A stretch of 41,187 nt of DNA from Gammaproteobacteria bacterium (lineage in GTDB: Bacteria; Pseudomonadota; Gammaproteobacteria; Ga0077536). The DNA is taken from NCBI GenBank assembly GCA_016874535.1, contig VGUA01000001.1, positions 1-41,187 on the forward strand, given 5' to 3'. The translations under genes and the position numbers were made by a program. Positions 4,860 to 36,653 of this stretch are shown here, in pieces (position 1 is the first letter of the stretch; every line of letters begins with the position of its first letter). The notes under the pieces were generated by a model. That model was given only the letters and a program-made list of their open reading frames with translations. It was not told the origin of the DNA and did no database searches.

Positions 4860-7120
4860 ATGGGCAATGAAGAACAGCAATTCAAATGGGTAGGTACCCG
4901 GCAGGTTCGCCCGGATGGCGTGACAAGGTCACGGGGCAGGCCAACTACGGTGCGGATTTCAGCCTGCCCGGCATGATCACCGGGCGCGTGCTGAGGAGCC
5001 CTCATGCCCACGCGCGCATCGTTTCGATAGACACCACCGAGGCCGGCAAGCTGGCTGGTGTGCGTGCCGTGGTGACCGCCGCGGATTTTCCCGATCTGCC
5101 TTCGGAAGTCGTTGCCGGCGGCGAGTCGCCCGTGAATTACCGCTACATCTCCTGCAACGCGATCGCGCGCGACAAGGTTCTCTATGAAGGGCACGCGGTG
5201 GCGGCGGTCGCTGCCATCAGTGCCGGCGTCGCCGAGCAGGCGTTGAAGCTGATTCGCGTCGAGTACGAAGTCCTGCCGCATGTGATCGATGTACGCGATG
5301 CGATGCGGGACGACGCACCGTTGCTGCATGACAACCTCTACACGGAGGGCGTCGATCCCAAACCCACCAAGCCCTCCAACATCGCCAAGCGCACCGAATT
5401 CCTGCTGGGCGATCCGGCGGCAGGTTTTGCGGAATCTGAAATCATTCTCGAGCGCAGCTACACCACCCAGCCTGTGCATCAGGGCTATATCGAACCCCAT
5501 GCCTGTGTCGCCAGTGTCGCCGCCGATGGCATGACCACGGTCTGGTCCAGCAGCCAAGGTCAATTCATGGTGCGGGAGTTCTGCGCCAAGCTGCTGAAGA
5601 TCGCGGACTCCGACATCCGCGTTCTCCCGGCTGAAATCGGGGGCGGTTTCGGCGGCAAGACCACCGTCTATCTGGAACCTCTCGCCATCGCCCTGTCGCG
5701 CAAGTCGGGTCGGCCCGTGAAGATGGTCATGAGCCGTGAAGAAGTGTTCAAGGCCTCCGGCCCCACGTCTGGTGGCGTCCTGCAGGTGAAGCTCGGTGCG
5801 CGGCGTGATGGCACCTTGGTGGCTGCGGAATGCGAGCTTGCTTATCAGGCCGGCGCGTTTCCGGGCTCGCCCGCGATTCCCGGGTGCATGACGGCCTTTG
5901 CCTGCTACGACATCCCCAATGCCAGGACCGTGGGTTATGACGTGGTGTCGAATCGCCCCAAGTGCGCGGCCTATCGCGCGCCCGGCGCTCCCATGGCGGC
6001 GTTTGCAGTGGAGTCGGCACTGGATGAACTTGCGCTCGAGCTCGGCATGGATCCTGTTGAACTGCGCCTCAAGAATGCGGCGAAGGAAGGCACGCGCGCG
6101 CTCTATGGTCCGAAGATGCCAGTGATCGGCTTCGTAGAGACCCTGGAAGCAGCTCGCGCGCACGCCCACTACAACACACCGCTCAAGGCCAATCAGGGCC
6201 GCGGTATCGCCTCGGGCTTCTGGTTCAACATCGGAGGCCAATCCAGCGCAGCCGTCCATATCAACGAGGATGGTACCGCCGAGGTAGTCACCGGCAACCC
6301 GGATATCGGGGGTTCACGTGCGTCCATGGCCATCATGGCGGCAGAAGTTCTTGGCATCGACTACGCCAAGGTGAAACCGCTCATTGGCGACACGGCGTCC
6401 GTTGGCTACTGCTTTCTCACAGGTGGCAGCCGCGTGACCTTCGCCACCGGCAAGGCGGTGGTGGAAGCCGCCAACGATGTGGTGCAGCAGTTGCGGGCAC
6501 GCGCGGCCAAGATCTGGAAGTGCGAGGTGGATGAGGTCATCTGGAAAGACGGTGTAGCCCACCCTGCCCAAGGCCAGACCGATACCCGCACCCAGCTCTC
6601 ACTCGCGGAAATCGCGGCCAGTGCAGCACGCACCGGGGGCCCCATCAGCGGCAAGGCCTCACTCAATGTGGGTGGCGCTGGTCCGGGTTTCGGGACCCAT
6701 TTGTGTGATGTGGAAGTGGATCCGGAAACCGGGCGGGTGACGGTGCTCCGCTATACCGTGATTCAGGATGTGGGACGCGCCATCCATCCCGGTTACGTGG
6801 AAGGCCAGATGCAGGGCGGTGCCGCCCAAGGCATTGGCTGGGCCCTGAACGAAGAGTATGTGTACGACGATCAGGGCAGGCTGCAGAACTCGGGCTTCCT
6901 GGATTACCGCATGCCGGTGGCCTCCGACCTGCCGATGATCGACGCTGTATTGGTGGAGGTCCCGAATCCCGCGCATCCCTTCGGTGTGCGCGGTGTGGGG
7001 GAGGTGCCCATCGTGCCGCCACTCGCCGCGGTCGCGAATGCCGTGGCGCGGGCCTCCGGTGTCCGGGTGAATGATCTGCCCATCTCACCACCCCGCCTGC
7101 TGGCGGCCCTGATGAAATGA
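4860..7120 (+). CDS. Molybdenum hydroxylase Mo-pterin-binding (large) subunit, apparent -1 frameshift near the N-terminus
   Basis: The large catalytic subunit of the xanthine dehydrogenase family. The uninterrupted frame runs from an ATG at 4886 (744 residues), but the family N-terminus lies in another frame from the ATG at 4860, behind GAGGAG at 4844-4849. That frame reads 'FKWVGTRQVRPDGV', and the continuation 'DKVTGQANYGADF' is in the downstream frame. One base appears missing at about 4920-4922. The rest is intact: Mo-pterin motif 'GGGFGGK' near residue 250, an active-site loop 'AYRAPGAP', and 'GVRGVGEVP' near residue 700, whose Glu aligns with the catalytic Glu of the family. It hydroxylates, or in some relatives reduces, (hetero)aromatic or CoA-linked substrates. 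If the deletion is real, initiation at 4886 would replace about the first 20 residues with unrelated ones. Confidence 0.9.
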
Positions 7121-9283: not shown

Positions 9284-10465
9284 ATGGAACCCATGCGCGG
9301 TATTCGCATCATCGATGTCACGTCGAACGCCTCTGGCCCCATGGCTACGGGCATGCTGGCCGATCAGGGCGCGGATGTGATCCGCCTGGAGCCGGTGGGT
9401 GCAGGCGATCCGTCCCGTCATGTGGGCGGCAGTCGAGGGGGGGTCTCCGCGTACAACGCCTACATGAACCGCAACAAGCGTTCGATGGCCGTAGATTTCA
9501 AGAACGACGCCCTCAAGCCCTGGCTCTACAAGCTCATCGAAACAGCGGATGTATTCGTGCAGAACTCGCGCCCCGGCGCGCTCGATCGCAGTGGCTTCGG
9601 CTTCGAGGATCTGCACCGGATCAATCCGTCGCTCATCTACGTTTCCATCTCGGGCTTCGGGCCGGTCGGGCCGGGTGCCAATGCGCGGGTCTATGACCCT
9701 GTCATCCAGAGCGTGGCGGGTTTTGCCGCAGCCCAGGGGGTGGGCGGCGCGCCTGCGCTCATGAAGACCATCGCCAGCGACAAGGTGGCGGCCGTCACCG
9801 CCTCGCAAGCCATCAGTGCCGCCCTGTTTGCGCGGGAACGGGGCAATGCCGGGGGGCATCACGTGGAGCTCTCCATGCTCGATGCGAGCCTCGCCTTCCT
9901 GTGGCCGGAGGTTTACTGGAACCACAGTTTCGTCGGCGACGAGGGCGTCTCGAAGAAGCCGCTGATTGCCGAGTTCTATCGCCTGCTGAAGACCCGCGAC
10001 GGCCACGTCAACATGATCATCGTGGGTGACGGCGAGTTTCAGGGCGCCTGCCGTGCCATGGGCGTCGATGCGCTGATGCATGATCCGCGCTTCCAGACGC
10101 TCAGTGATCGTTTCGCCAACTACAGCCTGATGCTCGCGGAGTTCGAGAAAGTCGCCCCCGGCTTCGATAGCGATACCCTGGTGGCCCGCCTGGAAGCAGA
10201 GGACGTGCCTTGTGCCAAGGTGAACACCTTCGACGAAGTCCTGCAGGATCCGCGCGTGGCAGCGCGCCAGGGCATCATCGAGTACGACCATCCCAAGGGC
10301 GGGCGGATGCGACAGGCGCGTGCACCGGCAATCTTTGGAGGTGAGCCCTGCCCTGTGCGCTTGCCGGCACCCGATCTCGGGCAGCACACGGCAGTCCTGC
10401 TGGCTGAAGTCGGCGCCTCTGCCGCAGACATCGAATCACTCAGGAGCTCCGGCGCCATCGGCTGA
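9284..10465 (+). CDS. CaiB/BaiF family (class III) CoA-transferase
   Basis: A 393-residue class III CoA-transferase. The start at 9284 is preceded by GAGG at 9271-9274, and homology begins at 'GIRIIDVTSNASGPMATGMLADQGADVIRLEP', the family N-terminus. Other motifs are 'NRNKRSMAVDFK', 'FVQNSRPGALDRSGF' and 'YVSISGFGPVGP'. In 'HHVELSMLDASLAFLW' the Asp (about residue 200) aligns with the aspartate that forms the mixed anhydride/thioester intermediate in formyl-CoA transferase. The family moves CoA between acids or racemises alpha-methylacyl-CoA. In this setting it probably activates a carboxylic acid intermediate for beta-oxidation (inference). It follows the nitroreductase by 12 bases and converges with the kinase gene. 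A G7 run at 9437-9443 inside the gene stays in frame. Confidence 0.93.
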   Translation: MEPMRGIRIIDVTSNASGPMATGMLADQGADVIRLEPVGAGDPSRHVGGSRGGVSAYNAYMNRNKRSMAVDFKNDALKPWLYKLIETADVFVQNSRPGALDRSGFGFEDLHRINPSLIYVSISGFGPVGPGANARVYDPVIQSVAGFAAAQGVGGAPALMKTIASDKVAAVTASQAISAALFARERGNAGGHHVELSMLDASLAFLWPEVYWNHSFVGDEGVSKKPLIAEFYRLLKTRDGHVNMIIVGDGEFQGACRAMGVDALMHDPRFQTLSDRFANYSLMLAEFEKVAPGFDSDTLVARLEAEDVPCAKVNTFDEVLQDPRVAARQGIIEYDHPKGGRMRQARAPAIFGGEPCPVRLPAPDLGQHTAVLLAEVGASAADIESLRSSGAIG

Positions 10466-10509: not shown

Positions 10510-11796
10510 TCAGGTCTGGCTGCGCGCGAGCGGCAGGCGATGTTCAAAGCCAGCGGGCAGCCATTCCTCCAGAGTCGCCAGAAATTCTTGCGCCGAGCTG
10601 AATCGATCCGCCGGATCCTTGGCCAGCAGCAGATCGATGACGGGTTGCAGCGCCGCCAGTGCCTCCGGCATCCGGGGGATGCTGGCATGCAGATGCTGGT
10701 AGACGAGTCCAGCAGCGCTGTCCGCCTTGTAGGGTTTGCGCCCGGTGAGCAGCTCGAAAAAAATCACGCCGGCGCTGTACAGATCCGCCCGGAAATCAAT
10801 CTGCGTGCCCATGGCCTGTTCGGGACTGAGATAACTCGGCGTGCCCAACACACCTGAGGTGGCGGGCAGATCCTGGGTCTCGTTCAAGCGCTTGGCGATG
10901 CCGAAGTCCGCGAGGGCGAGACTGCCGTCCGTGCGGAACATTATGTTCCCGGGTTTCAGATCGCGGTGAATCACGCCGCGCGCGTGGATGGCACTCAGGC
11001 CGCGCGCGATGCTGCGCATATAGGCGACAGCCTGCGCCGGCTCCACGCCGCGCTCGATACGCCGCTTGAGATCTCCCTGCTGGAAAAATTCCATGGAGAT
11101 GTAGCCATAGTCCGGTGTGAAGCCTTGGTCGAACACCCGCACCACATGGGGATCGTCGAGTCCCGCAATGATCTCCGCCTCGCGGATGAAGCGCTGGACC
11201 ACCAGAGGGTCACTGATCTGATCGGTATCGATAATCTTGAGCACCAGCTGCTCATGATCGCTCTCACGCTCTGCGAGATAGACGCGCGAAAACCCTCCCT
11301 GCCCGATGAGACGCACAAAACGGTGCCCGTGCCCGGAAGCTGCAGGCAAGTCGGCGTGCGTGTGGTCCTCCAGGGCCGCCTTGACCTGGGGCTCAAGCCC
11401 GCGCGTATCGCCTTCGTTGCCCTTGGACAATGCGAGCACGATGTCGATGAGACGCGGGCCTGGCACATCCTCGCGCCTGAGGTAATCCCGCGCGCCGGCC
11501 CGGATGGCTTCGATCGCCAGATATTCATCACCGCCTGCGGACACCAGCACCGCCGGCGGAAAGTCGGGTCGGGAGAACAGGCGCCGGATCCACGCCAGCC
11601 CGCTGCGACCCTCGCCGAGCTCTTCGCTGATCAGCGCAAAGTCGTAGAGATCCCAGCGGAAATCCGCTGCGGGCGTGCCTTGCTGCTCCGCATCGTATTC
11701 CGTGATTTCGACCGCCGGCAGGCTGGCCGCGAGATATTGACGGACCTCGGAGAGGAAGGTCTTCGAGGTATCCACCAGGATGATTTTCATGCTCAT
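10510..11796 (-). CDS. Serine/threonine protein kinase with N-terminal receiver-like domain
   Basis: A 428-residue cytoplasmic protein. Residues 4-125 resemble a response-regulator receiver: 'KIILVDTS' as strand 1, and 'AVLVSAGGDEYLAIEAIRAGARDYL' for strands 4-5. The residue aligned with the phospho-acceptor Asp is Ser57 ('FALISEEL'), so it should not be phosphorylated by normal phosphorelay. Residues 158-420 form a complete Hanks-type kinase: glycine loop 'LIGQGGFSRVYLAE', Lys187, 'HRDLKPGN' (277-284), Asp297 of DFG, and 'GTPSYLSPEQ'. There is no membrane helix or PASTA domain. It is transcribed divergently from the esterase gene and converges with the CoA-transferase. No paired sensor kinase or phosphatase is nearby. 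It may regulate the catabolic cluster, but its targets are unknown. Confidence 0.92.
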   Translation of the reverse strand: MSMKIILVDTSKTFLSEVRQYLAASLPAVEITEYDAEQQGTPAADFRWDLYDFALISEELGEGRSGLAWIRRLFSRPDFPPAVLVSAGGDEYLAIEAIRAGARDYLRREDVPGPRLIDIVLALSKGNEGDTRGLEPQVKAALEDHTHADLPAASGHGHRFVRLIGQGGFSRVYLAERESDHEQLVLKIIDTDQISDPLVVQRFIREAEIIAGLDDPHVVRVFDQGFTPDYGYISMEFFQQGDLKRRIERGVEPAQAVAYMRSIARGLSAIHARGVIHRDLKPGNIMFRTDGSLALADFGIAKRLNETQDLPATSGVLGTPSYLSPEQAMGTQIDFRADLYSAGVIFFELLTGRKPYKADSAAGLVYQHLHASIPRMPEALAALQPVIDLLLAKDPADRFSSAQEFLATLEEWLPAGFEHRLPLARSQT

Positions 11797-14632: not shown

Positions 14633-14699
14633 AGGACCTCCTGTATGGGTTCCATTCTAGATCCTCACGGACCAAAAACGACCATCTTGCCGCTCCGCC

Positions 14700-15402
14700 T
14701 CAACGCCCGCCTGACACGTCGATGAAGTTCGCGATGCAGTAAGACGCCGCTGGCGACAGCAACCAGAGGATTGCCTCGGCGACTTCCTCGGCGGTGCCGC
14801 CGCGCTGCATGGGAACATTGCCTTGCAGGCGCTCCACCCGGGTAGGGTCCCCATAGCTTTCGTGAATGTCCGTGTAGATGAGGCCGGGCCGCACCGCGTT
14901 CACCCGAATGCCCTCCACAGCCACTTCCTTGGCAAGGCCCGGGGTAAAAGTGTCGAGCCCACCCTTGGAGGCGGCCGAGGAGACATTCACGATGCCGCCC
15001 CCCCTTGCCACCCAGTCGGGTGGACATGCGCTTCACCGCCTCCCGTGCGCACAGCATGCTGCCTATGAGATTGGTGTCGAACACCCGACGGAGTCGCGCC
15101 AGATCCATCTCCACCAGACGCTGCTGTCGCTCCGCGATGCCTGCGTTGTTGACCAAGCCTTTCAGGGTGCCCAGTCGATCGACTTCCGAAAACAGCCGCA
15201 GGATGTCGCTTTCCTGCGCGACATCCGATTGAAAGGCATGCGCTTCACCGCCGCTTGCTGCGACTTCCGCGCACAAGGCCTCCGCCGCATCGCGCGCCTG
15301 GTGATAGCTGAACACCACTGCCTGTCCCGCACGGGCGGCAAGCTTTACGGTCGCGGCGCCGATGCCGCGACTGCCGCTAGTCACCAGCAGAATTTCGCGC
15401 AT
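14700..15402 (-). pseudogene. Short-chain dehydrogenase/reductase (YgfF-like), frameshifted and lacking the catalytic Tyr segment
   Basis: The N-terminal part (15402 to about 15010) has the NAD(P) motif 'VTSGSRGIGAAT' (usually TGGSRGIG) and 'LVNNAGI'. The C-terminal part ('ARGGGIVNVSSAASKGGLDTFT' to 'DVSGGR') is in another frame. They join if one C is removed from the C7 run at 14998-15004. Separately, about 14 residues that normally stand between 'IVNVSS' and 'AASKG' are absent without further frame change, and these include the Tyr of the YxxxK catalytic motif. From my memory of E. coli YgfF, that stretch contains 'GSPGEYVDY'. The start at 15402 follows GGGAGA. Even if the frameshift is an assembly error, the product lacks its catalytic tyrosine, so I call it a pseudogene. 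Confidence 0.85.
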
Positions 15403-15688
15403 GAGAGTCTCCCGTTGGGGTTGCCCAATCGACACTGTTGTTCAAAGTGCTATCTTTCGCGAGAAAAGCGGAGTAGTCTCCGCCAATCCCGTCTGGTGAT
15501 GCATTGACATCACACCAAGCAGACGGCATCTGATTAAGCCCGCCTCTGTCCGCTCTCGTCCATGCGCTCTTCATCAGTCCAAAGAATCCGCCGGCTTTCC
15601 GGCTGATGGGCGCCTGCATTACTTGTGCCGCTGGCTGCAGGTGTCCGAATCACGGACAACGCACGCTTCATTTTTTTGTGAGATTTGC

Positions 15689-22118: not shown

Positions 22119-23892
22119 ATGAGCGCGCAAAAGGTCCCGGTACTCATCATTGGCGGCGGCGCCTGCGGGCTCACCACCTCGATTCTGTTGTCGGACATGG
22201 GCATCGATCACCTGCTGATTGAACGCCACCCCACCACCTCCCATCTGCCGAAAGCGCATTACCTGAACCAGCGCACGATGGAAATCTTTCGTCAGCATGG
22301 CCTGGCCGATTCCGTCTACGCAGTGGGTACACCCATGGCGCACATGGGTAAGGTGCGGTGGCGGACAACCCTCGGCGGAGATGGCCCGCTGGACGCCCGG
22401 ACCTTTCAGGAACTCGATGCCTTCGGGGGCGGGGAACTCGCTGCCACCTATGCCAAGGACAGTCCCTGTCCTTCCACCAACTATCCGCAGATACGCCTGG
22501 AACCCCTGCTGCGCCAGCATGCCGAGGCGCGCGGGCCAGGACGCGTTCGCTTTCACCATGAGCTGGTGGACCTCAGGCAGGATGAAAATGGCGTGACTGC
22601 CACCATCCGCGATGTCGCCCAAGGTCAGGTTTATGAAGTGAGGGCGGATTACGTCGTCGCAGCGGATGGGGGCAAGACCGTGGGCCCTATGCTCGGTATC
22701 CAGATGGAGGGTCCCACCAATCTCGGGCGCATTGTCACCTCGCATGTGTCGGCCGATCTGTCGCAGTGGTGGGACGATGCCTGCCTCATCACCTGGTTCA
22801 TCAATCCGCACAACAGCGGCGTCTTTGGTAGCGGCGCCATGGTGCCCATGGGCCCGACCTGGGGACGGCATTCCGAGGAATGGGTCATCCATTTCAGCCA
22901 TGCGCCGGTCGATCCCGATCACTACGACGAGACCGCGGTGCTGCCTCGCTTGCGTTCGCTGCTGCAGCTCCCCGATCTGGAATTGACGGTGCACAAGGTC
23001 AGCAACTGGGTGCTGGATGCCGTGCTCGCTGCGCGCTACCAGGAAGGCCGCATCTTCCTGGCGGGCGACGCCGCCCATCGACATCCCCCAACCACGGGGC
23101 TTGGTCTGAATACCGCCGTGGGTGATGCGCACAATCTGGCTTGGAAGCTGGCGGCGGTTCTGCACGGCCGCGCCCATGCGACCCTGCTCGACACGTATGC
23201 CAGTGAACGCCGCCCGGTCGGGATGCGCAATGTGGACTGGGCCATGTTCACGGCCATGAACCACGCCGTCTGCGATGCTGGCATGGGTTTCTCACCCCTG
23301 CATCCCCCGGCGGCGCGGAAAGCCAATTTCGAGCTGTTCTTTGCCGAGACTCCGATGGGCGAGACACGTCGGGCGCGGGCGGCTGCGGTATTCGATACCC
23401 AGCGCGCCGAATTTCAGGCGCATGATCTGGAGCTCGGCTACGCCTACGCGGAAGGCGCCCTCCTGCCGGATGGCAGCCCACCCCCCCGCGCGCGATCCCA
23501 TGGGCAAGCGCTACCTGCCTGTGGCGCGCCCTGGCCATCGTCTGCCGCATGCCTGGTTACAGCAGCAGGAAGCTCGACTCTCAACGCATGATCTGGTCGG
23601 CAACATGGGACAGCCCTTGCTCATCACTGGAAATAAAGGTGAGGCTTGGGTTGCCGCTGCATCCGCCGTGTCGGAATCCCAAGGGTATGCGCTGCGCACG
23701 ATGAGCCTCAATGCCGACGAAGGTCCGGCAGATGTGCAGGGCCTCTGGGCCGCTGAGCGCGGCCTCACACCCGAGGGCGCGCTGCTGGTGCGCCCCGATA
23801 ATCATGTCGCCTGGCGCAGCGCAGGCCGCAGCCCGGACCCTCGTGCGGCGCTGCTCGATGCTCTGCATGCGCTGCATTTCAAAGTTCTCTGA
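22119..23892 (+). pseudogene. FAD-dependent aromatic monooxygenase (phenol hydroxylase/TfdB-like), +1 frameshift in a C7 run
   Basis: A PHBH-fold monooxygenase of about 590 residues if the frame is mended, close to the usual TfdB length. The FAD motif 'GGGACG' is at residues 12-17, the second FAD contact is in 'VVAADGGKT', and 'LAGDAAHRHPP' plus 'GLGLNTAVGDAHNLAWKLA' form the family's GD region. The frame ends in unrelated sequence after 'ALLPDGSPPP', while the family continuation 'ARDPMGKRYLPVARPGHRLPHAWL' is one frame away and runs to 23892. Removing one C from the run at 23481-23487 joins them. The thioredoxin-like C-terminal domain lies beyond the lesion. Either the run was over-called, or the gene makes a truncated protein. 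The substrate is probably a phenol or another hydroxylated ring. Confidence 0.87.
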
Positions 23893-23939: not shown

Positions 23940-25760
23940 ATGGCCGCCAATCCTGCCGCAATCAACACTTCCGTACTCGGCAATCTCGATTTCAACCTGG
24001 AGGAATTGCGTGCCCGCTATGCGGAGGAGCGCAACAAGCGCCTGCGCACGGATGGCAACGATCAGTATGTGGAAGTTGCGGGTGAGTTGGCGGCCATTGC
24101 CGATGATCCCTATGTACAGCGTGTAGAGCGCGCACCCCTCCGGGAAAAAGTGGAAGTCCTCATCATCGGCGGTGGCTTCGGTGGCCTCATCTCCGCGGCA
24201 CGACTCGCGCAGGCCGGCATCACGGATGTGCGTATCGTCGAGCGCGGCGGGGACTTCGGCGGGACCTGGTACTGGAACCGCTATCCCGGTGCCCAGTGCG
24301 ATATCGAGTCCTACATCTATCTCCCGTTGCTGGAGGAAACCGGCTACATCCCACGGGAAAAATACTCCTATGCGCCGGAGATTCTGGAGCACGCCCAGCG
24401 CATCGGTCGCCATTTCAAGCTGTATGAGCGGGCACTGTTCCAGACCCTCACCCGCAGCCTGCGGTGGGATGAAGCGCGGAATGCGTGGCAGGTGGAGACG
24501 GATCGCGGAGACCATATCGAGGCCTCGTTCGTCATTCTCTCCAGTGGTCCTTTGAACCGGCCCAAGCTTCCTGGCATTCCCGGCCTGTCCACATTCAAGG
24601 GTCACATGTTCCACACCAGCCGCTGGGATTACGACTACACCGGCGGTGATTCCACCGGCGGATTGCACAAGCTTGCGGACAAGCGGGTGGGCGTAATCGG
24701 CACGGGCGCCACCGCCATCCAGTGCGTGCCCTACGTGGCCAAGCATGCCGGCCACCTCTGCGTGTTCCAGCGCACGCCATCCGCCATCGACGTACGAGGC
24801 AACAAGCCGACTGATCCGGACTGGGCCGGGAGCCTGAAGCCCGGCTGGCAGCGTGTGCGCAACCATAATTTCGCGGCGATCCTGAGCGCCATCCCCCAGG
24901 CCGAAGACATGGTCAAGGACGGTTGGACAGATCTCTTCAAGGCCCTGGGGGAACTGCTGAACAAGCCGGCTGAAACGGGCATGAAGCCCGAGGACTTCGC
25001 GCTCCTTGCGGAGATCGCCGATTTCCGCAAGATGAACCAGATTCGGCATCGCGTGGATGAGGTGGTCAAGGATCCTGCGACGGCATCCGCGCTCAAGCCC
25101 TGGTACAAGCAGTGGTGCAAGCGCCCGACCTTCAACGATGAATTCCTGCCGGCTTTCAATCGTCCCAATGTCACCCTGGTGGATACCCAAGGCAAAGGCG
25201 TGGAGCGCATCACGGCGCATGGTGCCGTGGTCAATGGCGTGGAGTACCCACTCGATTGCCTCATCTTCGCCACCGGCTTCGAGGTGGGCACGGCCTATAC
25301 GCGACGCTCGGAGTTCGAGGTCCATGGCCGCAATGGTGTCTCTCTTTCGGAGTACTGGGCGCGCGGCATGCGCACCTACCACGGCTTCTACAGCAGTGGC
25401 TTCCCCAACTGTTTTCACCTCGGTCTGACCCAGACCGGCCTCGCGCCCAATTTCACCTATATGCTGAACGAGCAGGCACTGCACGTGGCTTGGGTGATAG
25501 ACGCAGTCAGGTCCCGCGGCGCCAAGCGCTTTGAAGCCCTTCCCGAGGCGGAAGCCGCCTGGGTGCAAACGGTCTCGAAACCGGGCTTCATGTCCGAGTA
25601 CCAGACAACCTGCACCCCGGGTTATTACAACGCGGAGGGCAAGAGCGGGCAGGGCGAAGGCTTTCTCGAAGGGCAGTACGGTGAGGGGCCGGTGCAGTTC
25701 TACACCTTGATGGAGAAATGGCGGGAACAGAGCGATCTGGCCGGGCTAGTCATTTCCTGA
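23940..25760 (+). CDS. Baeyer-Villiger monooxygenase (type I, with N-terminal extension)
   Basis: A 606-residue flavoprotein. FAD binds at 'GGGFGG' (77-82), and NADPH at 'GTGATA' (254-259). The type I BVMO fingerprint FxGxxxHxxxW(P/D) is intact at 219-230. A 70-residue extension precedes the FAD domain ('LEELRARYAEERNKRLR'), as in cyclopentadecanone-type and phenylacetone-type relatives with large substrates. The enzyme inserts oxygen next to a ketone, giving an ester or lactone. The start is behind AAGGAG. It follows the FAD monooxygenase gene by 47 bases on the same strand and may be in the same operon. It is the first of three BVMOs in the window, and the longest. A bulky or polycyclic ketone substrate is a reasonable inference. 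Confidence 0.93.
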   Translation: MAANPAAINTSVLGNLDFNLEELRARYAEERNKRLRTDGNDQYVEVAGELAAIADDPYVQRVERAPLREKVEVLIIGGGFGGLISAARLAQAGITDVRIVERGGDFGGTWYWNRYPGAQCDIESYIYLPLLEETGYIPREKYSYAPEILEHAQRIGRHFKLYERALFQTLTRSLRWDEARNAWQVETDRGDHIEASFVILSSGPLNRPKLPGIPGLSTFKGHMFHTSRWDYDYTGGDSTGGLHKLADKRVGVIGTGATAIQCVPYVAKHAGHLCVFQRTPSAIDVRGNKPTDPDWAGSLKPGWQRVRNHNFAAILSAIPQAEDMVKDGWTDLFKALGELLNKPAETGMKPEDFALLAEIADFRKMNQIRHRVDEVVKDPATASALKPWYKQWCKRPTFNDEFLPAFNRPNVTLVDTQGKGVERITAHGAVVNGVEYPLDCLIFATGFEVGTAYTRRSEFEVHGRNGVSLSEYWARGMRTYHGFYSSGFPNCFHLGLTQTGLAPNFTYMLNEQALHVAWVIDAVRSRGAKRFEALPEAEAAWVQTVSKPGFMSEYQTTCTPGYYNAEGKSGQGEGFLEGQYGEGPVQFYTLMEKWREQSDLAGLVIS

Positions 25761-27842: not shown

Positions 27843-29468
27843 TCAGGCGAAGAGGAAGCCCTCGTACCCTTTTGCGGCAATTTCGGCACAAAGTTTACGG
27901 TAGGTGCCAAACCCTCCTATGTAAGGCATGAATACCCGGGGTTTGCCCGGGATGTTGGCGCCCATGTACCAGGAGTCTGTCTGCGGAAACAACGTGGCGT
28001 CGGCGAGTTCCTTCACATGCGCCCCCCATTGCGCCTCCGCTTCGGAGGCGGGCTCGATAAGCTCCTTGCCCGACTGCTTCATGTGCAGAAGGCAGTCACA
28101 GATCCAGTCCACATGCTGTTCGATGGAGGTCGGCATGTTGCCTAGGACGGAAGGGCTGCCCGGCCCCGTGATCATGAAGAGGTTGGGAAAGCCTCGCGTG
28201 GCGAGGCCCAGATAGGTTTGTGGCCCTTCGGCCCACTTCTGCTGCAGAGTCTGGCCATCCCGACCCCGAATGCCGAGACGGGTGAGTGGGCCGGTGAGCG
28301 CATCAAAGCCGGTGGCGAACACCAGCGTATCCAGAGCATGGACATCGGCGCTGGTCTTCACGCCCTCGGCCACGATGCGCTCGATAGGGGTCTCCCGCAA
28401 ATCCACCAGCGAGACGTTCTCGCGATTGAAAGTCTCGAAGTAGCCTGAATCGAGCGGCAGGCGCTTGGTGCCTATGGGGTAGCCCTGCGGGATGAGTTTG
28501 CGGGCCACCACCGGATCCTTCACCGTGGCGCGGATCTTCTCGCGCACGAATTCGGCCGCAATCTCGTTGGCCTCCCTGTCCGTGAGCAGATCCTTGAAGC
28601 TGCCAAACATCCACTCGAAGCCACCCTTCTGCCAGTCGGCTTCCAGCTGTGCCAGAAACTCCTCCCGTCGCAGCTTCAGGGCCTCCTGATCGCGCCAGTC
28701 ATAGGGCTGGCCAATGGTGGACCAGCGGCAGGTTTCACGGATTTTCCTGATGTTGCGCTTGAGTTCCACGATGCGTTCCGCAGACAGGGGTGCGTTGCGC
28801 GCAGGCACGCTGAAATTAGGCGTGCGCTGGAAGACGGTGAGGTGTTGGGCTTGGCGGGCGATGACCGGAATGGACTGGATGCCCGACGATCCGGTGCCGA
28901 TGACCCCGACGCGTTTGCCGCTGAAATCCACTGGCTCGTGAGGCCACTCACCCGTGTGGTACCAGTCGCCCTTGAAGTCCTCCAGGCCCGGGATTGCGGG
29001 TACCTGCGCGGCCGACAGGCAGCCCGCTGCGGTAATGAGAAACCGTGCTTGGACTTCTTCTCCTTGGGCGGTTTGAACCCGCCAGCGGCGCGCGGCCTCA
29101 TCCCAACGGGCTTCCACCACCTTGGTGTTGAAATCAAAACAGGACTTGAGATCGAAGCGGTCAGCCACATGTTCCAGATAGCGGAGGATCTCCGGCTGTT
29201 CTGGAAACCGGCAGCTCCAAGTCCACTCCTGCTCAAGCTCGGGCGAGAACGTGAAGGAGTAGACCCAGCTTTCGGAATCTGAACTCGCCCCGGGGTATCG
29301 GTTCCAGTACCAGGTGCCGCCGACCCCACTCCCTTGTTCGAAGGCGCGGTGGGGCAGCCCCATTTCGCGCAGACGGTAAACAGCATAAAGGCCGGAGAAA
29401 CCGGCACCGATGACTACCGCGTCCACGTCTGCGGGTTGGTCGTCGGATGAGGGTATGGTGCTAGGCAT
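27843..29468 (-). CDS. Baeyer-Villiger monooxygenase (cyclohexanone monooxygenase-like)
   Basis: A 541-residue type I BVMO, the size of cyclohexanone monooxygenase. FAD binds at 'GAGFSG' (21-26) and NADPH at 'GTGSSG' (191-196). The full fingerprint FxGxxxHxxxWP is at residues 165-176. Further motifs are 'GVGGTWYWNRYPGASSD' and 'FATGFDALTG'. The start at 29468 is behind GGAGAG with about 6-base spacing. The family turns cyclic or linear ketones to lactones or esters. It is transcribed alone on the minus strand, convergent with the methyltransferase block and divergent from the small secreted protein gene. Its sequence is well separated from the other two BVMOs in the window, so different substrates or steps are likely. 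Confidence 0.94.
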   Translation of the reverse strand: MPSTIPSSDDQPADVDAVVIGAGFSGLYAVYRLREMGLPHRAFEQGSGVGGTWYWNRYPGASSDSESWVYSFTFSPELEQEWTWSCRFPEQPEILRYLEHVADRFDLKSCFDFNTKVVEARWDEAARRWRVQTAQGEEVQARFLITAAGCLSAAQVPAIPGLEDFKGDWYHTGEWPHEPVDFSGKRVGVIGTGSSGIQSIPVIARQAQHLTVFQRTPNFSVPARNAPLSAERIVELKRNIRKIRETCRWSTIGQPYDWRDQEALKLRREEFLAQLEADWQKGGFEWMFGSFKDLLTDREANEIAAEFVREKIRATVKDPVVARKLIPQGYPIGTKRLPLDSGYFETFNRENVSLVDLRETPIERIVAEGVKTSADVHALDTLVFATGFDALTGPLTRLGIRGRDGQTLQQKWAEGPQTYLGLATRGFPNLFMITGPGSPSVLGNMPTSIEQHVDWICDCLLHMKQSGKELIEPASEAEAQWGAHVKELADATLFPQTDSWYMGANIPGKPRVFMPYIGGFGTYRKLCAEIAAKGYEGFLFA

Positions 29469-29611
29469 GGCTGTCTCTCCTGGAATGGTGCCGGAGTGGT
29501 CCCGAGATGGACCCGGAGTCGCCTTGATTCTAGCGGCAGGTTTCAGACCGTCCCAAGTGCACGGTCGCGTGCACGGGATGCTGGAAATCCTCCCCGAACA
29601 CCGGCGAACAC

Positions 29612-29620
29612 TGGTATAAA
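29612..29620 (+). promoter_or_regulatory. Extended -10 promoter for the small secreted protein and downstream operon
   Basis: TGG-TATAAA matches the extended -10 form (TGn-TATAAT), with no good -35 at 17 bases upstream. The predicted start of transcription is near 29627, giving a leader of about 40 bases to the ATG at 29668. This would drive the secreted protein, the crotonase and the two acyl-CoA dehydrogenase genes. Confidence 0.45.
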
Positions 29621-29667
29621 GGCGCGGCACGATGATTCACACAACTCTCTTGCAAGCAGGTTCGACT

Positions 29668-29946
29668 ATGCGGATGACCCACACGACAGCTCTGACCTTG
29701 ACTCTCTTGCTGACCCTCTTCGTGGCGGCAGGTCCGGCGAATGCCCAGGCGCCGGAAAAACGCTGCCTGCTGAGCGGCTCGTACATCAAGGTCTATGGCG
29801 ATACCGAAGACGACAAGCGCGAGACCTGCCTGCGCCAAGGTGGGGACTACACCGATTATGTGCCGCCACGCCCCAATGCGCAGCCCAATGGGCCACGCGA
29901 GGGCTTCAAGGCGATGATGGGCAACCGGGGCAGCGGCACTCGCTGA
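29668..29946 (+). CDS. Small secreted protein of unknown function
   Basis: A 92-residue protein from ATG 29668; an ATG at 29632 in the same frame would add 12 residues. The N-terminus is a clear signal peptide: a short start, a Thr/Leu-rich hydrophobic core ('ALTLTLLLTLFVAAG') and 'ANA' before a likely cleavage at 'ANA-QA'. The mature part is about 65 residues, with two Cys ('KRCLLSG' and 'ETCLRQGG'), a 'YIKVYGDTEDDKRE' stretch and a Gly/Arg/Pro-rich tail. The two Cys could form a periplasmic disulfide. I do not recognise the family. The crotonase begins 9 bases after its stop, so it may share a transcript with the beta-oxidation genes. Confidence 0.65.
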   Translation: MRMTHTTALTLTLLLTLFVAAGPANAQAPEKRCLLSGSYIKVYGDTEDDKRETCLRQGGDYTDYVPPRPNAQPNGPREGFKAMMGNRGSGTR

Positions 29947-29954
29947 GGCAGACC

Positions 29955-30827
29955 TTGAAAGACATCACCGAATTCACCTGCATCGAGTACGAGGTTCCGG
30001 AGCCCGGCATCGCCCGGCTCTGGCTCAATCGACCGGCCACCGCCAACGCCCAGGACACGCGTCTCCTCTACGAGCTGAATACCGCGTTTGATCGCGCCGC
30101 GCACGATGATGACATCCGCGTCATCATCCTGGCTGCGCGCGGAAAGCACTTCTCCTCCGGCCACGATCTGGGTGAGAAGGAATGGTATGAGACCATGCAC
30201 GACTACCGTACCGTGGCTCCGGTGTGCGGTTTCGCCTGTGCCGGGGCCGAGCGCCAGATGGCGCGCGAAGAAGAGATTTATCTCGGTTTCAGCGAACGCT
30301 GGCGCAACATCCCCAAGCCGACGATTGCCGCTGTCCAGGGCAAATGCATTGCCGGTGGCCTGATGCTCGCTTGGCCCTGTGATCTCATCATCGCGAGTGA
30401 CGATGCGAGCTTCAGCGACCCCACCGTAAGTTTCGGCGTGAACGGGGTTGAGTTCTTCAACCACCTCTGGGAAGTGGGCGCCCGCAAGGCGAAGGAAATG
30501 CTGTTCACCTCGGACGCCTTGAGCGCCGAGGAAGCGCAGCGCCTCGGCATGGTCAATCAGGTCGTCCTCCGGGCTGAACTCGAGGAAGCCACGCTCGTCA
30601 TGGCGCGCAAGATCGCGAGCAAGTCGCGCTTTGCGCTCAAGATGGCCAAGAAGGCCGTCAACGGGGCCCAGGATGCACAGGGTCGGGATGTGGCCATGCA
30701 GAATGCTTTCCATCTCCATCAGCTGGCCCACACCCACTGGTTGAAGCTCCACGATCTTCTGGTGGACCCGAACGGCCTGCCTGAGGCCACTCGCAAGGCA
30801 CTGGGTCTGGACCGCGACAAGAGCTGA
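29955..30827 (+). CDS. Crotonase-family protein (enoyl-CoA hydratase/isomerase fold) lacking both catalytic Glu
   Basis: A 290-residue crotonase-fold protein. The TTG at 29955, behind GAGG with 6-base spacing, is the best start; the frame is open further up but inside the secreted-protein gene. The oxyanion segment 'GKHFSSGHDLGE' and 'AVQGKCIAGGLMLAWPCDLIIASDDASF' are clear. By alignment with rat enoyl-CoA hydratase, Glu144 is replaced by Met137 and Glu164 by Thr157. The usual water-adding pair is missing, so hydration is unlikely and another crotonase reaction, such as isomerisation, C-C cleavage or thioester hydrolysis, should be considered. It is followed after 7 bases by the acyl-CoA dehydrogenase genes, implying one operon for acyl-CoA breakdown. 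Confidence 0.88.
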   Translation: MKDITEFTCIEYEVPEPGIARLWLNRPATANAQDTRLLYELNTAFDRAAHDDDIRVIILAARGKHFSSGHDLGEKEWYETMHDYRTVAPVCGFACAGAERQMAREEEIYLGFSERWRNIPKPTIAAVQGKCIAGGLMLAWPCDLIIASDDASFSDPTVSFGVNGVEFFNHLWEVGARKAKEMLFTSDALSAEEAQRLGMVNQVVLRAELEEATLVMARKIASKSRFALKMAKKAVNGAQDAQGRDVAMQNAFHLHQLAHTHWLKLHDLLVDPNGLPEATRKALGLDRDKS

Positions 30828-30834
30828 ACACGCC

Positions 30835-32007
30835 ATGTACTTTCTGGATGCGCTGGATGCCGCGGACCGGGCTTTCCATCAGGAAGTGCTGGCCTTCCTG
30901 GAGCGGGAGCTGGACCCCGCACTCGCCGCTGCAGATGACGACCAGCGGACCTTCGTCGCGGATCATCATCGCGGCAATGCGTGGCTGAAGAAATTGCGCC
31001 CCCGCCGCTGGCATGCGGGCCATTGGCCTGCGTCCGCCGGAGGCGCGGGCTTGTCACCGGTACAAAACTATCTGCTCCTGTATGCGCTCGGCTATGCCGG
31101 TGCGCCCGCGCCACCGCCCATGGGCCTCATTTACGTGGGCCCGACGATTGTCCGTTTTGGTACCCCGGCGCAACACGAGACCTACCTGCCGCCACTGCTC
31201 GATGGCACGGATGAATGGTGTCAGGGCTTTTCCGAACCCGGCGCAGGATCTGATCTGGCGGGTCTCAGTACGTTCGCCGAGCGGCGCGGCGACCGCTATG
31301 TCATCAACGGCTCCAAGATCTGGACGACCGACGCGCATCATGCCAATCGCATCTTCGTGTTGTTGCGCACGGCGCGGGAAAATACGCGCGCGGCGATGAG
31401 CTTTCTGCTGGTGGATATGAACACGCCCGGCGTGAGCGTACGGCCGATTCGCATGCTCTCCGGGGATCACGAATTCAACCAGGTATTCTTCGACAATGTC
31501 GAAGTGAGCACGGCTTGCCGTCTGGGTGAGGAAGGACAGGGGTGGGAGATTGCGCGCTACCTGTTGGAGATAGAGCGCGGCTCCTTCGTCTTTGGTGGAC
31601 GACTGCGACGACGCCTGGAGAAACTGATCGAACGGATCAGGGCGGCCAATCGTCTCTCTCCCCGCATCGCCGCGGCGCTCGCGCAGCTTGATTGCGATCT
31701 GCTGGCTTACGAGAGCATGGAATTCCGCATGGGTGCGCTGGGTGCCGGCGGGGCCATGCGCGCGGCGAGCGCCAACCTCATCAAGATTGAATGGACCGAA
31801 CTGCTGCAACGTATCGATGATCTGGCGCTGGAGACAGGCGATGCCTCCATGCTGTTCGGGCCGCCCGACAGCGCGCCGGACGGCGGTCTGCCCATGGCGC
31901 CAGCACTTGCTTCCTGCTTCAACAATCTCGCCGCCACCATTTACGGCGGTTCAAACGAGATTCAGCGCGACCTCGTGATGCGCGCCCTGCGCCAGGTGTG
32001 GGGATGA
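30835..32007 (+). CDS. Acyl-CoA dehydrogenase, first subunit of a probable heteromer
   Basis: A 390-residue FAD acyl-CoA dehydrogenase. It has 'GFSEPGAGSDLAGL' (substrate and FAD contacts), 'VINGSKIWTT' and the C-terminal 'IYGGSNEIQRDLV'. The next gene is a second acyl-CoA dehydrogenase whose ATG overlaps this stop (ATGA). This layout is that of the two-gene FadE pairs that form alpha2-beta2 heterotetramers in mycobacterial steroid side-chain breakdown, where one partner supplies most of the active site. By analogy this enzyme would oxidise a branched or polycyclic acyl-CoA. The heteromer is inferred from the layout, and the substrate is not known. The atypical crotonase is 7 bases upstream. 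Confidence 0.92.
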   Translation: MYFLDALDAADRAFHQEVLAFLERELDPALAAADDDQRTFVADHHRGNAWLKKLRPRRWHAGHWPASAGGAGLSPVQNYLLLYALGYAGAPAPPPMGLIYVGPTIVRFGTPAQHETYLPPLLDGTDEWCQGFSEPGAGSDLAGLSTFAERRGDRYVINGSKIWTTDAHHANRIFVLLRTARENTRAAMSFLLVDMNTPGVSVRPIRMLSGDHEFNQVFFDNVEVSTACRLGEEGQGWEIARYLLEIERGSFVFGGRLRRRLEKLIERIRAANRLSPRIAAALAQLDCDLLAYESMEFRMGALGAGGAMRAASANLIKIEWTELLQRIDDLALETGDASMLFGPPDSAPDGGLPMAPALASCFNNLAATIYGGSNEIQRDLVMRALRQVWG

Positions 32008-33113
32008 GCAGGCTGCTGCCGGGGGACGCTCCCGAGACACAGGCACTGGCCGACAGTGCGCGCAAGGTATTGTCGGATCTCTATCCGGACCAGATGACGC
32101 AGGAAACTCCGGCTGCGCACTGGCCCCTGTTCGCTGAACTCGGCTGGCTGGGTGCATGCCTGCCGGAGGCCGTGGGCGGCTCGGGCTTGCCGCTCTCCGC
32201 ATGGAGCGTGCTGGCGGAGACCTTGTCGCCGTCCTTGATGGTGGAGCCGCTGCTGAGTCAGTTGGCACTCAGCGGCCATCTGTTGAGTCGTGCAAATGGG
32301 GATGACGTGCGTGATTCGCTGCTCGGCCGCTGGATGGCTGGAGAAAGTCGTCCTGCGCTGGTTTTCAACGAGGCGGATTCTCTTGCTCCTGAACATGGCG
32401 GCTGGTCTCTGCGCTGCGAGAGCAGCGGTGACGGCTTCTCGCTGCATGGCACCTGTTCTGGTGTCGCTGATGTCGCGGGCTGTGATGCCTTGCTGGTGGT
32501 CGCACAGGAAGCCGGGACTCCGGGGCTCTTCCTGCTGCCAGCCCAGACAGCGGGAGTACGGCTTCATGCCCATGCAGCCATTGATGGCAGGTCACATTGG
32601 GACGTGGAACTCGTGGCCGCCAAACCGGACACCAGACTCGAATTCTCCGGCACGCTGTCTGATGCGCTCGCAGAGTCCGCTGCCCTGCATGCGCTGCTGC
32701 TTGCCAGTGAGAGCCTGGGCCTGATGCGCGAACTCACGCGCCGGACCCAGCAGTATCTGCTCCAGCGGCAGCAGTTCGGTCGCCCGCTCATCGAGTTCCA
32801 GGCCCTGCAGCATCGTTTGGTGGACATGCTGCTAAAGGTCACGCGTGTGGAAGGACTGCTCGAGGTGGCTCGTCTGCGAGTGGACATCGCAGGCCTTGCG
32901 ACGGCTGCCCCTTTCATCGCGGCGGCGAAGGCCAGCGCGGGCGAAGAAGGTCGCCGGCTGGGGCGCGAGGCAGTGCAATTGCATGGCGCAATCGGCGTGA
33001 CCGATGAACTCATCATCGGGCGGATGCTGAAACGTCTGGTCAGTAATGAGCTGATTGGAGGCACCACAGCTGCACATGCCGCCCAGTGGGAGCGCCACCG
33101 GATTCCTCTCTAG
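32004..33113 (+). CDS. Acyl-CoA dehydrogenase, second subunit of a probable heteromer
   Basis: A 369-residue acyl-CoA dehydrogenase from ATG 32004, which overlaps the upstream stop by four bases. The N-terminal helical domain is present ('ELGWLGACLPEAVGGSGLPLSAW'), and the C-terminal domain has 'QRQQFGRPLIEFQALQHRLVDM' with the FAD-contacting Arg/Gln segment, and 'QLHGAIGVTDELIIGRML'. The middle beta domain is poorly conserved and lacks the 'EPxAGSD' motif seen in its partner. Such loss is common in the non-canonical partner of FadE heterodimers. The two probably act as one enzyme. The DUF445 gene begins 77 bases downstream. Confidence 0.9.
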   Translation: MSRLLPGDAPETQALADSARKVLSDLYPDQMTQETPAAHWPLFAELGWLGACLPEAVGGSGLPLSAWSVLAETLSPSLMVEPLLSQLALSGHLLSRANGDDVRDSLLGRWMAGESRPALVFNEADSLAPEHGGWSLRCESSGDGFSLHGTCSGVADVAGCDALLVVAQEAGTPGLFLLPAQTAGVRLHAHAAIDGRSHWDVELVAAKPDTRLEFSGTLSDALAESAALHALLLASESLGLMRELTRRTQQYLLQRQQFGRPLIEFQALQHRLVDMLLKVTRVEGLLEVARLRVDIAGLATAAPFIAAAKASAGEEGRRLGREAVQLHGAIGVTDELIIGRMLKRLVSNELIGGTTAAHAAQWERHRIPL

Positions 33114-34035: not shown

Positions 34036-35502
34036 GTGAGCAGAGAAGGAAAGACGGACTATCGCATCCTCATCATCGGTGCCGGACCGGGCGGGATGTG
34101 CACGGCCATCAAGCTGCAGGAGGCCGGTATCACGGATTTCCTCATCCTGGAGAAAGCCGGAGGTGTGGGGGGCACGTGGTGGCACAACCGGTATCCGGGA
34201 GCCGAGTGCGATGTGAAGTCGCACCTCTACTCTTTCTCCTTCGAGCTCAAGCGTGACTGGTCGCGTCCCTTCGCCGGCCAGGCTGAGATTCTGGAATACT
34301 TGGAGCAGGTGGCGACCAAGTACAAGGTATTGCCTTTCGTGCGCTTCCATACCGAAGTGCGTGCGACCCACTGGCAGGATGATGCTTCCCGATGGGAGGT
34401 GAGCACGGCCGATTGCACCACTTACCGGGCGTCGATCGTGATCAGCGGCATGGGAATGTTCAATGATCTCGCTTGGCCCGAGATCGAGGGCTTAAGCGAG
34501 TTTGGCGGCACGATGTTCCATTCGGCCCGCTGGAACCAGCAGCATGATCTCACCGGCAAGCGGGTGGCGGTGATCGGCAGTGCGGCGAGCGCCGTGCAAT
34601 TCATCCCTGAAATTGCGGAGAAGACATCCCGCCTGCATGTATTCCAGCGAACGGCCAACTGGGTTGCACCCAAGGATGATGCTCCCTACACGGAGGAACA
34701 GCTCAAGCATTTGCGTGAAGATCCGAACGCCATTCACGAATCCCGTGCGAAGATTTACCGTGAACTGAACGAATTCATGCTCTTCGACAACCCGAAGCTG
34801 CAGGCGGATCTCACCGGCTATGCGAGGCGGAATCTCGAAGTGGTGAAAGATCCGGAGCTGCGCAAAAAGCTTACGCCCACCCATCCTTTTGGCTGCAAGC
34901 GCCCACTCTTCTCCAACCGCTACTATCCGGTGTTCAATCTACCGCAGGTGGAGCTGGTGACGGATAGCATCGCGCGAATCACGCAAGGTGGCATCGTGAC
35001 TACCGACGGCCGCGAGCGCGAAATTGACACGCTTATCATTGCCACCGGCTTCCAGGTATCCAAATATCTTTCAGCGATAGAAGTTACGGGCCGCGAGGGA
35101 CGCAAACTGGAAGATGCCTGGAGTGATGGCGCCCAGGCCTATCTCGGGGTTGCCACCAGTGGCTTCCCGAATCTCTACATGCTTTATGGGCCCAACACCA
35201 ACAATGGGTCGATCATCGCGATGATCGAAATCCAGGTGGGCTGGATAGTGCAGCAGATCGAGCGCATGCAGCGCGAGGATTTGGTCAGCCTTGATGTGCG
35301 TCCCGAAGTCGAGGCGCGCTACAACGAGGACATCCAGCAAGCCATCCGCAAGGTCGAAGTGTGGCAGGCGAGCTGTGGCAACTACTACAGCGTGGGTTCA
35401 GGACGCATGGTCACCCAGTGGCCACACACCATCGACGACTTCGCCCGTTGCCTGGCCGCACCGGATCCGGCGGCCTTTGATCAGGTACCAGCCACCGCCT
35501 GA
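34036..35502 (+). CDS. Flavin-containing monooxygenase, BVMO-like with variant fingerprint
   Basis: A 488-residue flavoprotein from GTG 34036, behind GGAGAAG with about 7-base spacing. FAD binds at 'GAGPGG' (15-20), followed by 'GGVGGTWWHNRYPGAECDV'. The BVMO fingerprint is FGGTMFHSARWN (156-167), ending in Asn where type I enzymes have Pro or Asp. The NADPH motif is 'GSAASA' (181-186), where the second Gly is Ala. It is shorter than the other two BVMOs by 50-120 residues and lacks their long loops. It may be a BVMO of a different subgroup or a flavin N- or C-hydroxylase. The gene is the only one on this strand between DUF445 and the TA region, and its 3' end overlaps the convergent crotonase gene. 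Confidence 0.88.
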   Translation: MSREGKTDYRILIIGAGPGGMCTAIKLQEAGITDFLILEKAGGVGGTWWHNRYPGAECDVKSHLYSFSFELKRDWSRPFAGQAEILEYLEQVATKYKVLPFVRFHTEVRATHWQDDASRWEVSTADCTTYRASIVISGMGMFNDLAWPEIEGLSEFGGTMFHSARWNQQHDLTGKRVAVIGSAASAVQFIPEIAEKTSRLHVFQRTANWVAPKDDAPYTEEQLKHLREDPNAIHESRAKIYRELNEFMLFDNPKLQADLTGYARRNLEVVKDPELRKKLTPTHPFGCKRPLFSNRYYPVFNLPQVELVTDSIARITQGGIVTTDGREREIDTLIIATGFQVSKYLSAIEVTGREGRKLEDAWSDGAQAYLGVATSGFPNLYMLYGPNTNNGSIIAMIEIQVGWIVQQIERMQREDLVSLDVRPEVEARYNEDIQQAIRKVEVWQASCGNYYSVGSGRMVTQWPHTIDDFARCLAAPDPAAFDQVPATA

Positions 35503-36653
35503 CCGAGATCCCGCAGAGGATGCGCTTCCGCAGTCCAGGGGCTGCGGAAGTAGCCCTCCACCCAGGCGCCGTCCACCGCGCCTGTGCTGGCCGGCGACCA
35601 TCGAGGTTTGCGATCCTTGTCTATGAGCAAGGCGCGTATGCCTTCTGCAAGATCGGGCCTGGCCGCACACGTGAGTGCTGCCACCAGTTCGGCCCGGAAC
35701 ACCTCGACCAGCGAGCAGCGCTTGAGACGCCGTTGAAGGGCAATGGAAAGCAGGGCGGTGCTGGGCGAGCCCGCCTCCAGGGTTGCCACCCCGCGCGCAA
35801 ACCATTCACTGGTGTCCTTGAGAGCCCTTGTGGCTGCTATGAGCGTCTGCGGATCAGGGGCGCTGCACGCAGCGTTGATGAGATCCAGATGCTCGCGCAG
35901 AGGACCGGGCGCTTCGCTCGATGCCGCGTGATCCGACAGCAAACTTGAGAGCTGCTGCCGACTGGACAGGGAATCTTCGGGCCAAGTCTGGGCCAGTATG
36001 GCCTGCAAGACTTCCGCCTTACGCGCATGCGGGATGCAGACATCCGCCAGGCCGGCAAAAATGGCATCACCCGCGCCCAGCTGGCAGGCGGTGAGGGCAA
36101 GGAAGATTCCAGTGTGGCCGGGCGCGCGCGCCAGGAACCAGCTGCCACCCACATCCGGAAACAACCCGATATTGATCTCCGGCATCGCGAGTCTCAGCTG
36201 GTCGGTGACCACTCGATGGCTGCAGCCGGCCATGAGGCCCATGCCGCCACCCATCACCACTCCTTGGCCCCAGCACAACAAGGGCTTGGGAAAGGTATGC
36301 AGCAGATAGTCGAGCCGGTATTCGCGTGAGAAGAAATCGAGCGCGTAAGTGTTGGCGCGGATGTCATCGCGCTCGGCGGACGCATGATGCGCGAGGCATG
36401 CCGCATGCAGACGGGTGAGATCTGCACCGGCACAGAAAGCGCGGTCGCCGGCGCCTTCCAGCATCACGAGTGCAATGCCGGGATCCCGAGCCCAAGCGTT
36501 CATCTGCTGCCAAAGCAGATCGATCATTTCCAGAGTGAGGGAATTGAGGGATTTCTCGGCATTGAGGCAAGCGATGCCGAGCCGCGATCCCCCGGCGGTA
36601 GGCAGCTCACGAAACAGCACAGGGGCGTTGGCTGCAGAAATCTCGTTGGTCAT
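35481..36653 (-). CDS. 3-hydroxyisobutyryl-CoA hydrolase-like crotonase
   Basis: A 390-residue crotonase, longer than hydratases and of the size of 3-hydroxyisobutyryl-CoA hydrolase. The hydrolase-type motifs are present: 'GDRAFCAGADL', 'VVMGGGMGLMAGCSHRVVT' and 'LAMPEINIGLFPDVGGSWFL'; the Glu of 'PEINIG' and the Asp of 'FPDVGG' match the catalytic pair of that enzyme. It would release free acid from a beta-hydroxyacyl-CoA, as in valine breakdown, or act on a related pathway intermediate. Its last 22 bases overlap the convergent BVMO-like gene on the other strand. The glycosyltransferase gene on the same strand ends in the upstream direction, at 36684-37439, so the pair could share a transcript. 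Confidence 0.92.
   Translation of the reverse strand: MTNEISAANAPVLFRELPTAGGSRLGIACLNAEKSLNSLTLEMIDLLWQQMNAWARDPGIALVMLEGAGDRAFCAGADLTRLHAACLAHHASAERDDIRANTYALDFFSREYRLDYLLHTFPKPLLCWGQGVVMGGGMGLMAGCSHRVVTDQLRLAMPEINIGLFPDVGGSWFLARAPGHTGIFLALTACQLGAGDAIFAGLADVCIPHARKAEVLQAILAQTWPEDSLSSRQQLSSLLSDHAASSEAPGPLREHLDLINAACSAPDPQTLIAATRALKDTSEWFARGVATLEAGSPSTALLSIALQRRLKRCSLVEVFRAELVAALTCAARPDLAEGIRALLIDKDRKPRWSPASTGAVDGAWVEGYFRSPWTAEAHPLRDLGQAVAGT

Follow-up and report, generated by a model that had tools for sequence, protein, structure and literature searches.

ScdN and the Crotonases of Steroid HIP Clusters

Passages of PMC13101464 describe ScdN as the hydratase of the β-oxidation steps that follow C-ring cleavage, and passages of PMC6895838 also call it a hydratase. 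Rows of a table in PMC8399759 list ScdN, C211_RS11230, RHA1_RS22405, and Nov2c353 as 'Hydratase'. The main text of PMC13101464 contains no word starting with 'Glu'. The Rhodococcus RHA1 gene echA13 is proposed, in passages of PMC5380842 and PMC6678751, for removal of the 7β-hydroxyl; according to a passage of PMC5380842, the Rhodococcus gene of this name is not present in M. tuberculosis. A kinship of the present locus to M. tuberculosis echA13-fadE17-fadE18 (Rv1935c to Rv1933c) was considered and dropped; the echA13 of these passages of PMC5380842 and PMC6678751 is the Rhodococcus gene.

Novosphingobium sp. ES2-1 carries a member of the NCBIfam family NF006140 (418 bits) in the gene order two CoA-transferase subunits, NF006140 member, nitronate-monooxygenase-like gene, PRK07938 crotonase, two acyl-CoA dehydrogenases, thiolase, and SDR. 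The scd labels of these genes were assigned here from the gene order of Comamonas testosteroni TA441 given in passages of PMC13101464, and the orthology to ScdN is likewise by gene order. ScdL2, with 54-63% identity, directly adjoins the NF006140 gene in five further genomes. The wider cluster including ScdM1M2 is found in four of these five, the fifth having neither ScdM1M2 nor ScdY within the stretch read. We take ScdM1M2 to be the dehydrogenase acting just before ScdN. The six NF006140 members at the scdN place of these steroid C/D-ring (HIP) clusters (ES2-1 and the five others) form one clade with support 100/100. HIP operons have another crotonase, EchA20/ScdY, for hydrolytic ring cleavage; in ES2-1, the gene in the scdY position exceeds the PRK07938 cut-off. 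EchA20/ScdY shares about 30% identity with the crotonase studied here; its five copies in HIP loci keep the second-position glutamate and have glycine at the first.

Organization of the Locus

The window, the whole stretch of 41,187 nucleotides analysed here, carries a crotonase gene followed at once by two acyl-CoA dehydrogenase genes (Table 1). The crotonase product matches Pfam ECH_1 (PF00378) with 149.8 bits. The equivalent of its start codon in relatives is apparently TTG in L027 and L028, GTG in L030 and L031, and ATG in L033. A gap of 7 bases separates the crotonase gene from the alpha-type dehydrogenase gene, which the beta-type gene overlaps; both genes are thus where the earlier note had seen a dehydrogenase pair just downstream of the crotonase.

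Table 1. Crotonase gene of the window and the neighbouring genes that bear on its function.
Feature	Position	Strand	Remarks
NF006140/PRK08290 (ScdN-type) crotonase	29955..30827	+	290 aa, TTG start; ORF boundaries exact
Acyl-CoA dehydrogenase, alpha-type, PimC-like	30835..32007	+	Helix Glu motif (..LEIER..) and end motif IYGGSNEIQRD kept
Acyl-CoA dehydrogenase, beta-type, PimD-like	31998..33113	+	Helix Glu motif absent; QLHGAIG kept
Baeyer-Villiger-type flavin monooxygenase, downstream of crotonase	34036..35502	+	Family matches; Baeyer-Villiger type putative
Baeyer-Villiger-type flavin monooxygenase, divergent, upstream of crotonase	27843..29630	-	Family matches; Baeyer-Villiger type putative

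The top NCBIfam models for the two dehydrogenases are the large and small pimeloyl-CoA dehydrogenase subunits, with scores far below the cut-offs. Alignment to the ES2-1 pairs of the scdM and scdC positions, and to two other pairs, shows that the alpha-type protein keeps the helix glutamate and the YGGSNEIQRD end and that the beta-type protein is without the helix glutamate. We take the helix glutamate and the end motifs to have catalytic meaning in such a pair. The two products are likely partners in an alpha/beta heteromeric enzyme, because this distribution of the helix glutamate is the pattern expected of one. Three putative Baeyer-Villiger-type flavin monooxygenases are encoded inside 12 kb, the two of Table 1 and that of 23940-25760, which reaches 768 bits with the model for pentalenolactone D synthase, whose cut-off is 1100. 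The downstream enzyme is a possible source of the substrate of the crotonase pathway.

A 104-amino-acid ORF (29632-29946, + strand) with a signal-peptide-like start, judged by eye, stops 8 bases before the crotonase gene. A Pfam scan of 29640-29945, a stretch perhaps out of frame with this ORF, gave no matches.

Subfamily Membership and Structural Relatives

The crotonase of the window matches NF006140 (PRK08290.1) with 384.7 bits over residues 5-266, for a curated cut-off of 280, and by this model belongs to an already known bacterial subfamily. It is the only protein of its genome over the cut-off. Matches over the cut-off, this genome included, occur in 17 of 299 genomes sampled from the phylum, in 3 of 274 sampled from the class, and in 11 of a set of 58 relatives; the three sets overlap. 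The comparisons below rest on 45 members found in Pseudomonadota and Actinomycetota, the non-redundant set left after reduction at 95% identity of 58 rows (57 ORFs of more than 150 bits and the window protein). They were drawn from loci L027-L057, L068-L075, and L080-L098 only, leaving out L001-L026 and L058-L067 (short flanks, many of the same genes) and L099-L107 (contigs of named loci).

The protein has the hallmarks of the crotonase superfamily, namely the ECH fold, seen in the PF00378 match and in an AlphaFold model that matches crotonases with Z up to 28.4, and the GG of the oxyanion hole. It shares the fold and the oxyanion glycines with the canonical enoyl-CoA hydratase (rat ECH, 1dub) but has Met137 and Thr157 in place of the two catalytic glutamates, Glu144 and Glu164. 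The closest solved chains, both by sequence and by the AlphaFold model, are 3ome of Mycobacterium smegmatis (Z 28.2; 52% identity over the aligned part) and 3t3w of M. thermoresistibile (Z 28.4; 50%), the next chain reaching 24.3. Their titles read 'probable enoyl-CoA hydratase' and name no specific substrate. Unlike the window protein they are actinobacterial; like it, they lack both glutamates and, in the sequence alignment, have the Asp/Glu/His positions in common with it. PRK08290 was not found in any paper by our literature searches, and a whole-word search for 3T3W and 3OME returned only unrelated papers among the matches listed. These searches found no account of catalysis in the NF006140 subfamily, though one may exist elsewhere.

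Missing Glutamates and a Conserved Alternative Set

Met137 lies within GKCIAGGLMLAWPCD and Thr157 within FSDPTVSFG, at positions occupied by glutamate in some of the genome's other crotonases and in some from related loci (GGGFE..., ...PEP...). We take these positions to be those of Glu144 and Glu164 in rat hydratase numbering. The alignment bears out the absence of both residues, on which the earlier note was built. None of the 45 members has glutamate at either position, so that the loss in the window crotonase is not due to chance. Position 137 is occupied by Met (43 members), Val (1), or Leu (1), and position 157 by Val (28), Thr (16), or Ala (1).

The oxyanion motif was correctly read as kept, Gly135 being present in all 45 members and Gly134 in 43. 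By homology, the oxyanion hole presumably consists of Gly134 and the His70 position, which would correspond to Ala98 in rat numbering. A second set of polar residues is conserved across the subfamily: His70 and Asp155 in 45 of the 45 members, Glu105, Glu166, and His170 in 44 each, His259 in 43, and His255 in 42. The divergent member L096, with Gln at 166 and Met at 170, was scored as a miss. Asp155 and Glu166, which had been put forward as candidate alternative acids, are thus conserved and may be catalytic in the subfamily. Glu166 and His170 are situated on the stretch after the second glutamate position. The AlphaFold model, built from a 17-row alignment, has pLDDT below 50 at the active-site loop 163-175.

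Many crotonases encoded in this genome and in related loci have lost both glutamates. Among 19 other readable crotonases of the genome, 8 are without both glutamates, 4 have both, and 7 have one, in an alignment whose column placement is uncertain for the most divergent rows. This survey covered 22 other places, of which 20 were fetched (C65 and C36 were left out) and one, L112, was dropped for a stop inside. The 25 neighbouring crotonases in related loci, near-copies included, divide into 13 without both glutamates, 6 with both, and 6 with the second only. With 8/19 and 13/25, such loss is not rare.

Gene Order across the Subfamily

Both dehydrogenase types are found in the locus of 15 of the 45 members, directly adjacent in 11. 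Another 6 members belong to HIP clusters, only one type was found for 6, and neither type for 18. Presence of both types was scored from the top phmmer hit in a stretch that reached no more than about 8-9 kb to either side, less at contig ends, and some of the loci with one or no type are cut by contig ends. In the clade of the window protein, the order crotonase, alpha-type, beta-type is found in L028, L030, L031, L033, and L035, and L027 includes the beginning of the third gene. The contig of L029 ends inside the alpha-type gene. In L032 the alpha-type match stops at 9614, while the locus extends to 10940, and no beta-type gene was found; this locus was scored as broken or misassembled. L034 and L047 are without the pair. 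A second group has the order crotonase, beta-type, alpha-type in all 7 of its loci (L083-L089; 5 non-redundant). Dehydrogenase pairs are also near, not adjoining, the NF006140 gene in L072, L074, L095, and L054. The earlier note argued from gene placement for a real step on an acyl-CoA; the operon is indeed kept in several relatives.

In a same-genus relative (L047/L067), the crotonase gene contains an in-frame TAG and is not accompanied by the dehydrogenase pair; this copy is apparently decaying.

Relationship to the Steroid HIP Pathway

The ScdN genes of the HIP clusters (ES2-1 and the five further genomes) resemble the window crotonase in several respects. They belong to NF006140, lack both glutamates, and conserve His70, Asp155, Glu166, and His170; 5 of the 6 loci have, like the window, acyl-CoA dehydrogenase pairs in the operon. 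ES2-1 ScdN shares 43% identity with the window crotonase and belongs to a separate clade, so that the function of the latter may differ. Two findings set it apart from an orthologous ScdN of the HIP pathway, which would be expected in the ScdN clade and in a cluster with scdL1L2 (ipdAB), scdK, and scdY. The window protein falls outside the ScdN clade, and an ScdL2 (IpdB) query gave no match in its genome (97.6% complete). As a control, the same query had matches in 18 of 26 other NF006140-holding genomes; identity was 54-63% in 5 of these, and the other matches were weak. The substrate of the window crotonase is therefore probably not a steroid HIP intermediate. Judged from these comparisons, the protein is a relative of ScdN and probably not a steroid HIP enzyme. 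The KstD family NF009478 has a sub-cut-off match in all 14 control genomes as well as in the window's own genome, and thus says nothing on steroid degradation.

Proposed Function and Alternatives

Hydration had been called improbable for this protein. This does not follow, since the ScdN orthologues (by gene order) also belong to NF006140 and are likewise without the two glutamates, and ScdN is listed as a hydratase in parts of PMC13101464 and PMC8399759. On balance we lean toward the hypothesis that the window gene codes for an ScdN-type enzyme that would hydrate the product of the adjacent dehydrogenases by means of a putative acid/base set of another kind, and would do so outside the HIP breakdown pathway. 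The dehydrogenase pair would desaturate an acyl-CoA to the 2-enoyl-CoA, whose thioester would be held in the oxyanion hole of the crotonase (Gly134 and the His70 position). The crotonase would add water to it without Glu144/Glu164, whose role would fall to non-canonical acid/base residues on the loop that follows Asp155 (Glu166, His170, and perhaps Glu105 or the C-terminal histidines). More speculatively, the acyl-CoA could come from an opened ring, because Baeyer-Villiger-type monooxygenases are encoded nearby. The suggestion that the step might be one not seen before is weakened by the membership in the ScdN subfamily and by the common loss of both glutamates among crotonases. A broader proposition, which we hold more tentatively and would not yet call probable, is that hydration of enoyl-CoA throughout the NF006140/ScdN subfamily relies on an undescribed acid/base set replacing the textbook glutamates (Asp155, Glu166, His170, the oxyanion-hole His70, and possibly the C-terminal HxxxHxH), with the window clade acting in a non-steroid ring-opening pathway. 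Crotonases would then have two catalytic solutions for hydration.

The absence of both hydratase glutamates together with the conservation of a different residue set would also suit a crotonase that does not hydrate, acting either by hydrolytic C-C cleavage (retro-Claisen, as in EchA20/ScdY, BadI, or MenB in reverse) or by decarboxylation of a keto- or carboxyacyl-CoA. By analogy with methylmalonyl-CoA decarboxylase and 4-chlorobenzoyl-CoA dehalogenase, His70 would occupy an oxyanion-hole position and Glu166 the loop that carries a working residue in other crotonases without these glutamates. The nearby Baeyer-Villiger-type enzymes suggest cyclic ketone chemistry, which would be in keeping with such a reaction, and the AlphaFold model matches structures of methylmalonyl-CoA decarboxylase and MenB, with Z values (about 22) that are level with those of ordinary hydratases. 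However, the score against the MenB model (118.2 bits) is far below its curated cut-off of 342.7, the C-C hydrolase step of HIP clusters is assigned to the other crotonase, ScdY/EchA20, and the only role listed for the subfamily, that of ScdN, is that of a hydratase. We consider C-C cleavage or decarboxylation rather unlikely. A catalytically inert protein that only binds acyl-CoA or serves as a partner of the dehydrogenase, for which mycobacterial EchA6 is presumably a precedent, would also account for the lack of both glutamates; the second polar set is, however, strongly conserved over the 45 members, which come from both Pseudomonadota and Actinomycetota, and this argues for catalysis. We hold the inert reading to be highly improbable. 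The reverse reaction, dehydration of a hydroxyacyl-CoA, is what passages of PMC5380842 and PMC6678751 propose for Rhodococcus EchA13 on 7β-hydroxy-HIP, and a table row of PMC8399759 places RHA1_RS22405 with ScdN. This role of EchA13 is a proposal, however, linked to ScdN by that listing, and the 12β-hydroxyl is removed in Comamonas by SteC according to a passage of PMC13101464. The dehydrogenase pair adjoining the window crotonase would, moreover, make a substrate for hydration, and dehydration appears improbable.

The point of interest is the mechanism of the subfamily. Crotonases are often assigned a function according to whether they have the two glutamates. Both textbook residues are gone in all the NF006140 members examined, yet ScdN, a relative in this subfamily, is listed among the hydratases of a steroid pathway. 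This suggests that the glutamate rule has exceptions and that another residue set may do the work of the two glutamates. Because solved structures of two close relatives, 3ome and 3t3w, exist, the question of mechanism is directly testable.

Other Genes of the Window

A second crotonase gene, of the 3-hydroxyisobutyryl-CoA hydrolase type, is at 35481-36653 (- strand; NF004127, 314.7 bits, cut-off 274). The large subunit of a molybdenum hydroxylase (coxL-like) is encoded at 4886-7120 (+ strand), about 23 kb upstream of the NF006140 crotonase gene. A coxL-like gene is also found close to NF006140 crotonases belonging to several distinct clades (L083-L088, L037, L039-L043, L033, and L056). By eye, the frame of a FAD_binding_3 hydroxylase (22119-23591, + strand) seems to be continued in another frame (23275-23892) as in a frameshift-like split of the C-terminus, and an SDR-like frame (14665-15435, - strand) has a C-terminal half seemingly without SDR character, suggesting a further frameshift. 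The frame 10510-11796 (- strand), also judged by eye, appears to join a response-regulator receiver to a Ser/Thr protein kinase.
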